DNA from: Deltaproteobacteria bacterium
Lineage (GTDB): Bacteria; Bdellovibrionota; JACOXK01
Length of the DNA: 64,000 bases
Direction of reading: 5' to 3'
Assembly (NCBI GenBank): GCA_016186995.1
Contig: JACPKQ010000005.1
Coordinates: forward strand, 1-64,000
Below, piece after piece: positions 10,964-54,592 of this stretch. Every line of letters begins with the position of its first letter. Position 1 is the first letter of the stretch. The position numbers and the translations under genes were made by a program. The notes below the pieces were generated by a model. The model saw nothing but the letters and a program-made list of their open reading frames with translations. It was not told the DNA's origin and searched no databases.

Positions 10964-11719
10964 TTAAAAGTAAAAAATTTTCTTCAAACTCAAGCCACAG
11001 GCTGGGGCTGTAGGGCCTCGAATCATATGAGCAGGATTTATCTGACCACTACCGACAAGATACATAGCACCCACAATGTTTCGAATCATATGTTTTAAAA
11101 ATCCTGTTCCTTGAATTTTAAAAACAAGAAAATCTTCTTCTTGTCTCCACGCAGCTTCTAGAATAGTTCGAAAAGTTGTTTTGGTACGACTGCCACTTGT
11201 TTGAAATAATCTAAAGTCATGTTCTCCTATTAAATATCCGCAAGCTTCATTCATGAGTAAAATATTTAATTTTTTAGGTCTCCACCAAGACATTGTTTTA
11301 TCTTTCTTAGTTGGATTTTTTCCATTAAAAATAGAGTACTCATAAAGTTTTGACACAGAGTCTTCCCGGGCGTGGAAACTATCTTGAACCTCTTCTGCCA
11401 TAACAATACGAATATCTTCTGGTAAATATGAATTTATTTTTTGAACACAACTATTCAAGGGACGGAACGCAGGGCTTCCTGGATTCCAGCTTGTGCCTAC
11501 GGCTGTAGGCTGGAATGACGGAGGTGGTGTAAAATGAGCAACTTGGCCTTCTGCATGAACACCCGCATCTGTTCGAGAAGCCCCATAAATAATCACCTTT
11601 TGATGAAATATTTTATAAAGTGCTTCTTCTATTTTTCTCTGTATTGTGGGGCGTGTTTTCTGCCTTTGCCAGCCTAAATATTTGGCTCCATTATATTTTA
11701 TAGTGAGTTTTATTTTCAT
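10964..11719 (-). CDS. truA: tRNA pseudouridine(38-40) synthase TruA
   Basis: A 251-residue protein that isomerises uridines 38-40 of tRNA anticodon arms. The family core is clear: KYNGAKYLGWQRQ, the catalytic SRTDAGVHAEGQV with Asp51, SKLYEYSIFNG, GEHDFRLFQTSG, GTGFLKHMIRNIVGAM and the end motif GPTAPACGLSL. The length is normal apart from about 15 residues after VAHFTPPP (SFQPTAVGTSWNPG) that are encoded by a palindromic repeat and have no counterpart in the family. The insertion is in frame and lies between the catalytic motif and the next conserved helix, so activity is probably kept. tRNA-Lys lies divergently upstream. Confidence 0.93.
   Translation of the reverse strand: MKIKLTIKYNGAKYLGWQRQKTRPTIQRKIEEALYKIFHQKVIIYGASRTDAGVHAEGQVAHFTPPPSFQPTAVGTSWNPGSPAFRPLNSCVQKINSYLPEDIRIVMAEEVQDSFHAREDSVSKLYEYSIFNGKNPTKKDKTMSWWRPKKLNILLMNEACGYLIGEHDFRLFQTSGSRTKTTFRTILEAAWRQEEDFLVFKIQGTGFLKHMIRNIVGAMYLVGSGQINPAHMIRGPTAPACGLSLKKIFYF
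11481..11519. repeat. In-frame palindromic element in truA
   Basis: GGATTCCAGC...GCTGGAATGAC forms an imperfect stem around an 18-base loop. It adds a Pro/Ser/Trp-containing peptide to TruA without breaking the frame. Confidence 0.8.
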
Positions 11720-11791
11720 ACAATCCTTGTTATTTTTCTCTTACTTATTTTAATTTTTTGCGATATACAAGAGAGACCTTTAGAAATATGT

Positions 11792-11867
11792 GGGTTCGTA
11801 GCTCAGTTGGTAGAGCAGCTGACTCTTAATCAGCGGGTCGAAGGTTCGATCCCTTCCGGACCCACCA
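11792..11867 (+). tRNA. tRNA-Lys (CTT)
   Basis: A 76-base tRNA with encoded CCA. Acceptor arm GGGTTCG pairs with CGGACCC (one G-T wobble). The D arm is GCTCAGTTGGTAGAGC. The anticodon stem is GCTGA/TCAGC around CTCTTAA, giving anticodon CTT. The T arm has GGTTCGATCC. It stands between divergent truA and the flavoprotein gene, 31 bases before the latter. Confidence 0.97.
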
Positions 11868-51919: not shown

Positions 51920-51985
51920 TGTTCAAACAGTATTCTCTCCTCTCTATTATTGTCAATGTTCAGAGACGTGTTACTCTTTAAAGAT

Positions 51986-54592
51986 ATGCATCTAACTCTT
52001 TCTCAGGGTCTTAAAGTTACGGTTGAAGAATCCCATCGTTCTCCTGTTGTTTCAGCTCAAATTTGGCTTGATGTGGGTAGTTTTCACGAAGGAAAGGGCG
52101 AAGAAGGTGTAGCTCATTTTTTTGAACACATGCTTTTTAAAGGAACTCAACGGAGAAAACTAGGCGAAATAGCACAAGAAGTTGAATCTCATGGTGGAGA
52201 AATGAATGCCTATACGAGTTTTGATCAGACGGTATATTATATCACCATTCCCTCTCGTCACTGGGCATTAGCCCTAGATATATTATCCGATGCAGTCCTT
52301 CATCCACTTTTTGATCCACAAGAAATAGAAAATGAAAAACTTGTCGTCTTTGAAGAAATGGCAAGATCCCACGACTCTCCTCATGATATGGCAAGTGAAC
52401 TGTTACTCAAAAACATTTTTCAAAACCACCCTTATGGTAAACCTATCTTGGGGAAAAAAGAAACAATCCAAAATTTAAATCAGAAAAAACTCATTCAGTT
52501 TCATAGAAAATGGTACACACCCAATCGAATGACACTTGTTGTAGCAGGCGATGTGAACTCAAAAAATATATTGGCACAAGCCAAAAAACTTTTTTCACAT
52601 AAAAAAAAATCTCCAATCAAAAAAGACTGGATTCCCCGATCAAGTCGGGGGATGACATTTTATTTCCGGGATGACTATTTTAAAAAAAAACTTACCTTTT
52701 GTCTTAAACCAGCACATATCCAACTCTCTCACTCTCACTTAGCTTTTCTAACTCCACCTGTTGTACACTCAGATATCCCAAAACTTGATCTTTTATCTTC
52801 TATTTTGGGACATGGAGAAAGCAGTCGCCTCTACGTCGCCACAAAAACGAAGAAAAAATTAACAAGTTCCATTCACTGTGGAATCTATACATTAAAAAAA
52901 GCAAGCGTATTTTATATTTCTTCTGTTCACATCCCAGAAAATCTTATTCCCCTCACAAGAGAAATTGTTACACAAATCAATAATATCAAATTAGCTCATA
53001 TCACCCCACAAGAGATAGACATTGCTAAGAAAAACATCTTAAGTGAAAAAATCTATGAAAAAGAAACAACAGATGGTCTTGCACGTAAGGTAGGCTTTTA
53101 TGCTACTTATTTTAATAATCCAGGAGAAGAACAGAAATATTATGAAAGTATCAAAGATACAACCACTTCAGAACTTAAAGACATAGCTCATAAATATTTA
53201 AATCTTTCTCAGTCGACTTTTGTTAATTTATATCCTGAAAAATACTCCCCAAAAATAAAAGAATTTAAAAACATGATGAGATCGCCACGGTTTCTTTTGA
53301 GAACCCTCGCGATGACAAGAGAAAAAACAACTCATAAAATAAAACAAAAAAGTATTAAAAAATATGTTTTGAATGGCTTGACCGTCCTTTTTGTTGAAGA
53401 TCACTCGCTACCTATCATTTCTATGAGAGCAACTTTTTTTGGAGGTTCTCTCTATGAAACAAAGCAAAAAATAGGTCTTACACAGGTACTCACCCGTGCC
53501 ATGACAAAAGAAACTTTGGAAACTTCGCAAATAGAGCTCGCTCAAAAAGTAGAAGAAATAGCAGGAAGTTTAGAGGGTTTTAGTGGTAGAAACAGTTCTG
53601 GACTCAGCTTAGAATTTTTAAGTGAATATGAAAACCTAGCACTAGACCTTTTCTTTGAAATCTTACTGCACCCAAAATTCTCTCCTAAAATACTCTCTTA
53701 TCTCAAAAAACAAACTCTTGAAGAAATAAAGTATGAAGAAGATAATCTTGCAAGCAAAGCTTATAATAATTTCCTTAGAAAACTATATCCCCATCATCCT
53801 TATGGATATCCACTTAATGGTACTCCACAAACAATAACCTCACTAAAAACTAAAAATCTCTTCAAAGCTCATAAAAGCATTTTCATTCAAAATCCTGGAA
53901 TATTAACTATCGTGGGAAGCTTTTCGGAAGACTTTAGAGAAAAAATTATTGAAGCTGCTAAAAAATGGGAGAAAAGAACTAAGCCCCATAAAAAATTTCC
54001 TAAAATTCTACCTTTAAAATCAAATCAGGAGCTTTATGAGCACAAAACTAAAAAACAAGTCAATATTATACTTGGTTTTTTAGGAGCAAAAATTTCGGAT
54101 CAAGACCGTTACGCTCTACACATACTTTCTACAATCCTTTCTGGACAAAGTGGAAGACTTTTTATGAATTTAAGAGATAAAGAAAGTTTAGCTTATTCAC
54201 TTCATGCAAGTAATATAGAGGGACTTCTACCAGGACATTTTTATTTTTACCTAGGTACCTCCCCAGAGAAATTAGGAAAAGCTTTAAATCTACTTAAAAA
54301 AGAAATTGAAACCCTTAGAAAGGAAAAAATTTCAAGAACAGAAATAACAAGAGCCAAAAAATATATTATAGGAAAGCATGAAATGAGTTTGCAAAAACTG
54401 AGCACCCAAAATGCCTATTATTCTTTTGATGAACTTTACGGATTAGGATACGCAGAAACTTTAAATTACCATAAAAAAATTTCTCAGATAACTCAAAAAG
54501 ATTTAGAAAAAGTGATTCACAAATATCTAAACTTAAATTCTTCTATTTTATCTGTTGTAGGCCCTGTAAAGAATAAAACAACTGATAAATAA
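51986..54592 (+). CDS. Two-domain M16 zinc protease
   Basis: About 868 residues from ATG 51986 (MHLTLSQGLKVTVEES; 51956 and 51902 are possible, but 51902 overlaps the divergent gene). The inverted zinc motif HFFEH (His and Glu metal and catalytic residues) is followed by ESHGGEMNAYTSFDQTVYY and the downstream glutamate (EEMARSHDSP). The second, inactive-type domain begins after a linker. Two palindromic elements are translated in frame: DWIPRSSRGMTFYFRDD and MMRSPRFLLRTLAMTRE. The 3' end overlaps the convergent permease gene by 45 bases. Confidence 0.9.
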   Translation: MHLTLSQGLKVTVEESHRSPVVSAQIWLDVGSFHEGKGEEGVAHFFEHMLFKGTQRRKLGEIAQEVESHGGEMNAYTSFDQTVYYITIPSRHWALALDILSDAVLHPLFDPQEIENEKLVVFEEMARSHDSPHDMASELLLKNIFQNHPYGKPILGKKETIQNLNQKKLIQFHRKWYTPNRMTLVVAGDVNSKNILAQAKKLFSHKKKSPIKKDWIPRSSRGMTFYFRDDYFKKKLTFCLKPAHIQLSHSHLAFLTPPVVHSDIPKLDLLSSILGHGESSRLYVATKTKKKLTSSIHCGIYTLKKASVFYISSVHIPENLIPLTREIVTQINNIKLAHITPQEIDIAKKNILSEKIYEKETTDGLARKVGFYATYFNNPGEEQKYYESIKDTTTSELKDIAHKYLNLSQSTFVNLYPEKYSPKIKEFKNMMRSPRFLLRTLAMTREKTTHKIKQKSIKKYVLNGLTVLFVEDHSLPIISMRATFFGGSLYETKQKIGLTQVLTRAMTKETLETSQIELAQKVEEIAGSLEGFSGRNSSGLSLEFLSEYENLALDLFFEILLHPKFSPKILSYLKKQTLEEIKYEEDNLASKAYNNFLRKLYPHHPYGYPLNGTPQTITSLKTKNLFKAHKSIFIQNPGILTIVGSFSEDFREKIIEAAKKWEKRTKPHKKFPKILPLKSNQELYEHKTKKQVNIILGFLGAKISDQDRYALHILSTILSGQSGRLFMNLRDKESLAYSLHASNIEGLLPGHFYFYLGTSPEKLGKALNLLKKEIETLRKEKISRTEITRAKKYIIGKHEMSLQKLSTQNAYYSFDELYGLGYAETLNYHKKISQITQKDLEKVIHKYLNLNSSILSVVGPVKNKTTDK
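52628..52675. repeat. In-frame palindromic element in the M16 gene
   Basis: GGATTCCCCGATCAAGTCGG then GGGATGAC, followed by a second short CCGGGATGAC. Read without frameshift between two strands of the first protease domain. Confidence 0.8.
53276..53317. repeat. In-frame palindromic element in the M16 linker
   Basis: GAGATCGCCACGGTTTCTTT...CCCTCGCGATGAC, in the linker between the two protease domains. Confidence 0.8.

Follow-up and report, generated by a model that had tools for sequence, protein, structure and literature searches.

In a 64-kb stretch of bacterial DNA (the window, 64,000 nucleotides), short palindromes with GTCAT/ATGAC ends are translated inside conserved enzymes, which raises the question of how an element can insert repeatedly into genes while keeping the frame, and whether the added peptides are neutral loops. 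The reading we favour, with a probability of roughly 85%, is that many subtypes of non-autonomous CGTC-type REP elements insert at random, that frame-breaking copies are lost, and that the survivors are tolerated passengers.

All sites of the original prediction were found when each was read in codon phase (Table 1), and this confirmed palindromes in truA, the HI0933-type flavoprotein gene, the radical SAM gene, purF, purL, selA and the M16 protease gene. The four sites claimed for the radical SAM gene, whose product Pfam places with spore photoproduct lyase, and the two claimed for purF are present, but not all of them are internal: the radical SAM site at the 3′ end supplies the stop codon, and one purF site forms the C-terminal tail, derived from a 141-nt unit that recurs with 100% identity at another place in the same genome (G000:C7, L044:9542-9682). 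The start codon of nfi, which had also been ascribed to an element, is predicted to be the GTG lying within it, the sole in-frame start upstream of the conserved domain.

Table 1. Repeat elements of the window, their position and strand, and what they contribute to the encoded protein.
Feature	Position	Strand	Coding contribution or remark
REP, CGTC-type, 18-nt loop, ATTCCAGC stem, in truA	11479..11519	-	peptide SFQPTAVGTSWNPG
Two-headed element GTCATTGCGAG...CGTGATGAC in HI0933-type flavoprotein gene	12307..12394	+	peptide RHCEESKTTRQSHRDSDEITTGSFRTLVMT
REP at 3′ end of radical SAM gene	13222..13259	-	C-terminus VIPALRLEPLAGI and stop codon
REP, 4-nt loop, in radical SAM gene	13839..13865	+	antisense reading IDSRLRGND
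REP, 18-nt loop, in radical SAM gene	13974..14014	-	peptide CHSSPKPLAQAGIQ
TCAGGGTGACA-type element with two extra heads (21- and 20-nt steps), 5′ part of radical SAM gene	14322..14380	+	
141-nt repeat unit with REP	15275..15415	-	PurF C-terminal tail
REP, 20-nt loop, inside purF	16155..16197	-	15-residue peptide
Two-headed element inside purL	17196..17278	-	29-residue peptide
Intergenic control element, two truncated heads ahead at exact 21-nt steps	19360..19466	+	
REP reaching from just upstream into nfi (endonuclease V)	40942..40980	-	holds predicted GTG start codon
REP, 38-nt loop, with truncated head 20 nt upstream, in selA	41235..41316	-	27-residue peptide
REP, 7-nt loop, in M16 protease gene	52627..52656	-	antisense reading DWIPRSSRGMT
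Half of two-headed element in M16 protease gene	53273..53317	+	peptide MMRSPRFLLRTLAMT

To describe the elements beyond the window, 822 kb of the 1.68-Mb genome (49%) was scanned as 41 stretches including the window. GTC-tagged hairpins with AT-starting stems numbered 130, whereas the reversed sequence had 27; since the scan itself demanded an 8-bp AT stem, this criterion was judged by the enrichment over the reversed control. The main stems are ATTCCCGC, ATCCCGGA, ATTCCAGC, ATCCCCGC and related sequences, and two more subtypes have the heads GTCATTGCGA and GTCAT(C/T)(C/T)TGA. The palindromes of the window start with GTCAT, and their two-headed forms finish with ATGAC. T precedes the GTC tag in 99 of the 130 hairpins and C in 10; the loop measures 4 or 5 nt in 52 and 6-7, 14-20 or 38 nt in others, and the longest loops reach 39 nt, compared with 4-5 nt published for CGTC REPs. 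The unpaired tail is CCA in 56 and CTA in 33 of the 130, with the information peak at CCAG. Because the true element ends vary, a strict GTCATT...AATGAC pattern found few matches in the whole genome.

The window holds other repeats as well. A dispersed repeat of ∼190 nt (ATGGCTCGCTGTAGTTGTC...) with REP-like ends occurs at 44146-44335, 45336-45525 and 55720-55910 and in many further copies in the genome; an unrelated repeat is present as two 73-nt copies, 97% identical, at 8491-8563 and 10893-10965; and a tandem-like array of diverged 74-78 nt repeats with ∼160-nt spacing lies at 142-734.

By their tag, stem and tail, by the two-headed dimers and by the lack of a linked transposase, the elements belong to the CGTC-tagged REP superfamily, an assignment that is well supported. 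CGTC REPs, as described by Di Nocera et al. in 2013, have a CGTC/TGTC tag, an 8-bp stem starting with AT and a CCA-type tail, and form two-headed dimers and intragenic in-frame coding copies with no linked transposase; the superfamily covers the intragenic copies RPE-4 and RPE-6 of Rickettsia conorii (PMC3733652). The elements here share the tag, an AT-starting stem of 8-9 bp, a CCA-like tail, dimers and intragenic coding copies, and the likeness to Rickettsia palindromic elements with several subtypes that had been noticed from the window is thus borne out through this superfamily. Unlike the described CGTC REPs, a single genome of 1.68 Mb holds several subtypes, loop lengths include 14-20 and 38 nt as well as 4-7 nt, truncated heads recur at a fixed 21-nt step, and the in-gene share was estimated against a null model. 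RPE-4, -6 and -7 have a common ATGAC motif, lie at solvent-exposed positions and can occur as different subtypes at one site of orthologues (PMC3767692). The present elements resemble them in the ATGAC motif, in the in-frame position within unrelated housekeeping genes and in one case of orthologues with different subtypes at one site, a 4Fe-4S protein, but the units are shorter and most comparable sites are empty in the nearest relative. The nearest relatives of PurL come from deltaproteobacterial, Campylobacterota, Nitrospinota and other MAGs, with no Rickettsiales among them, and for this reason the elements would be termed ‘RPE-like’ rather than RPE proper.

Searching the literature for the exact repeat sequence gave chance matches only, Neisseria excepted. 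The main subtype contains the core palindrome of neisserial dRS3, ATTCCC(N8)GGGAAT; dRS3 has been reported to lie between genes and to serve as a target for phage integration (PMC3898611), whereas about one-quarter of the sites here fall within genes. RAYT-driven GTAG REPs and REPINs are likewise small dispersed palindromes that form dimers, but have another tag (PMC2817692, PMC3116915), and no Y1/RAYT transposase (PF01797) was matched in the present genome, whose assembly is 93% complete. Within the phylum, the ATTCCCGC repeat was found in 9 of 240 genomes, and Y1 genes in 5 of these 9 carriers compared with 174 of the 231 non-carriers; Y1 genes therefore do not track the repeat. The elements are thus of a known type, found in a new host and more varied in subtype and loop length than those published so far.

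Evidence for insertion came from a relative of the same family (G001, PurF 76% identical) and from proteins of known structure. In codon alignments, G001 lacks the segments in purF, truA, the HI0933 gene and the two radical SAM sites at 13839..13865 and 13974..14014, and outside the window its sites are also empty in MutS, PurN and others. Alignments with PDB sequences have gaps at the elements in PurF, TruA, HI0933 and SelA. The 15-residue PurF insert is located at the turn following a GLRPLSIG-like strand, where the protein in 1ao0, which we take to be the B. subtilis PurF structure, has a short turn; the truA segment is missing from E. coli TruA (1dj0); the flanks of the HI0933 segment align to 3v76 with ∼40 residues between them compared with 6; and SelA aligned to 3w1h leaves a gap between residues 373 and 400. 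The claim that the peptides have no counterpart in their families held in the truA, HI0933, radical SAM, purF and selA alignments.

It did not hold in this form for purL, where the element replaced a linker. The homologous stretch has about the same length in 19 relatives, so that the protein is not lengthened; instead, the element took the place of host residues of the linker, among them a conserved SPNIASK-W motif, and residues 389-430 form the lowest-confidence stretch of the AF2 model (pLDDT <50). Two other PurL proteins carry unrelated insertions in the same linker (∼40 aa in L195 of G001 and 20 aa in L090), which is therefore an insertion-tolerant spot. The idea of neutral loops agrees with the alignments and with the low confidence of the PurL model in the linker, and the peptides look like tolerated passengers. 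Separately, purL stops after 555 residues and overlaps purF (window 16769-16836), compared with 725 residues in the solved homologue 3viu; the C-terminal part of PurL is therefore missing or encoded elsewhere.

Alternatively, the in-gene copies could go back to a few old insertions passed on with their genes, a view put forward for extended RPE-4 in Rickettsia, instead of to many insertions in the present lineage. Such inheritance is favoured by a 4Fe-4S dicluster protein (L051:11101) in which one position is occupied by different subtypes in the two genomes. We regard it as unlikely overall, as most comparable sites are empty in G001, and repeat units, the 141-nt unit of purF included, are 97-100% identical at distant places of the genome, which suggests recent spread. 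G001 has in-frame REP-like inserts of its own at different sites (L212, L216, L160 and L210), including one in its M16 protease at a site that differs from those in the genome studied here.

The original prediction asked how an element can insert again and again in a frame-keeping length. The census of the 822 kb, made after doubtful clusters were dropped, comprised 35 internal in-frame sites and 100 other sites. The flanks of each cluster were scored with a codon-pair model trained on G001-conserved genes and long ORFs. Five clusters (L057:10804, L068:19061, L054:3816, L050:17798 and L069:13250) were removed on visual inspection, being judged chance hairpins within conserved sequence or too doubtful to keep. 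Thirteen cases were flagged, nine for a frameshift and four for a stop, and read singly: 12 are gene boundaries, where either the upstream gene stops ahead of the element or shortly within it, or the downstream gene begins at the element or beyond it, and the remaining one (L070:7677), flagged as disrupted, was a false alarm and is in frame. Reading is open across the elements, and no gene disrupted by an element was found in the 822 kb (49% of the genome), in agreement with the claim that most host genes look otherwise intact. Judged by Pfam domains, the hosts are ordinary enzymes, among them ThyX, MutS, MetH, CarB, RibE, SelD-like, Asd, CtaA and lipoamide dehydrogenase-like proteins.

While in-gene sites are all in frame, the lengths are not tuned to it. 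Core lengths within genes are 27, 28, 30, 37, 40, 41, 43 and 61 nt, not multiples of three by rule, and their distribution modulo 3 shows no difference from that of copies located outside genes (p = 0.62); all six reading frames occur, matching the stop-free frequency of each (p = 0.63). The elements thus have no special frame-keeping length; the frame is probably maintained by selection, with the in-gene copies as the survivors. These data also bear on the proposal that the elements evolved as coding cassettes, with a preferred frame giving a useful or harmless peptide and insertion biased to the frame. Every in-gene copy is indeed open and in frame, and Rickettsia RPEs with a conserved coded peptide have been reported (PMC10969869), but the use of all six frames in proportion to their stop-free frequency, and in-gene core lengths that vary from 27 to 61 nt and equal those outside genes modulo 3, leave this proposal already largely refuted and very improbable.

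A null model was then considered in which insertion is random and is filtered by frame and stop codons only. In the same flank test, 65% of random points land within a coding frame. On the assumption that copies outside genes are neutral, this predicts 189 insertions within genes, of which 1/3 keep the frame and 2/3 of those are stop-free. The expected number of in-gene survivors is 41.7 compared with 35 observed (p = 0.17), the expectation of ∼42 being rough, as intergenic copies may not be neutral. Thus, we infer for this one genome, assuming intergenic neutrality, that the filter of frame and stop codons alone explains the in-gene number. Removal of the segments after transcription or translation, as mini-introns or intein-like elements, would leave mature enzymes without them; the palindromes would fold in mRNA, and the hosts are core enzymes. 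However, exact RNA excision needs no frame-keeping and yet no frame-broken gene was seen, Pfam gave no splice or intein domain in the hosts scanned, and the peptide ends of the 9-50 aa segments are not conserved from frame to frame, so that we consider such removal hardly credible.

Under random insertion followed by loss of frame-breaking copies, small non-coding, non-autonomous hairpin elements would spread through the genome and land anywhere, inserted regardless of frame by an enzyme or a replication process. Copies that break the frame or add a stop in a needed gene would get lost, and insertion would sometimes go with local loss of host codons. The surviving third or so would be tolerated, forming loops, linkers and tails that are added to the host protein or replace parts of it and have no function of their own.

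Truncated heads add a second regularity. Same-strand (T/C)GTCAT pairs are spaced by 21 nt in 23 cases, by 20 nt in 5 and by 22 nt in 2, compared with zero pairs at 20-22 nt in the reversed control (p = 1.5e-6 within the range of 20-22 nt). Truncated heads are seen at both element ends, between subtypes, and in and out of genes: in L067, within a lipoamide dehydrogenase-like gene, TGTCATTCCCGCGATCCCCTT stands three times ahead of a full element, and the intergenic stretch at 19360 has a series of three different heads. As a rule, the repeated unit extends from the tag to approximately the tip of the hairpin, and behind it comes a pyrimidine-rich linker that resembles the linker preceding full elements. 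In other genomes the step differs, being 16-18 nt in G010 among the matches listed and 18 or 22 nt in G237 and G026. Frame is therefore not its cause, as 21 nt keeps the frame but 16 or 17 nt does not. Tandem slippage alone was ruled out as the source, since adjacent heads are often of different subtypes, although a slippage origin is possible for homogeneous arrays (L067:10012). We tentatively propose, with more doubt than confidence, that the step of two helical turns is a lineage-specific ruler which places or truncates CGTC elements beside older ones, an undescribed process; our guess is that copying or insertion would halt at the hairpin tip and restart at a spacing fixed in the lineage.

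Palindromic repeats that code for protein are familiar above all from Rickettsia and Wolbachia; in these obligate intracellular bacteria, drift in very small populations offered a ready excuse for them. Here such repeats are dense in the core enzymes of an unrelated lineage. The step-wise truncated heads offer a new handle on the movement of repeats without a transposase. As random insertion followed by a filter of frame and stop codons predicts the survivors, the puzzle of how the frame is kept becomes a measurable rate at which enzymes tolerate a random insert of 9-30 residues.
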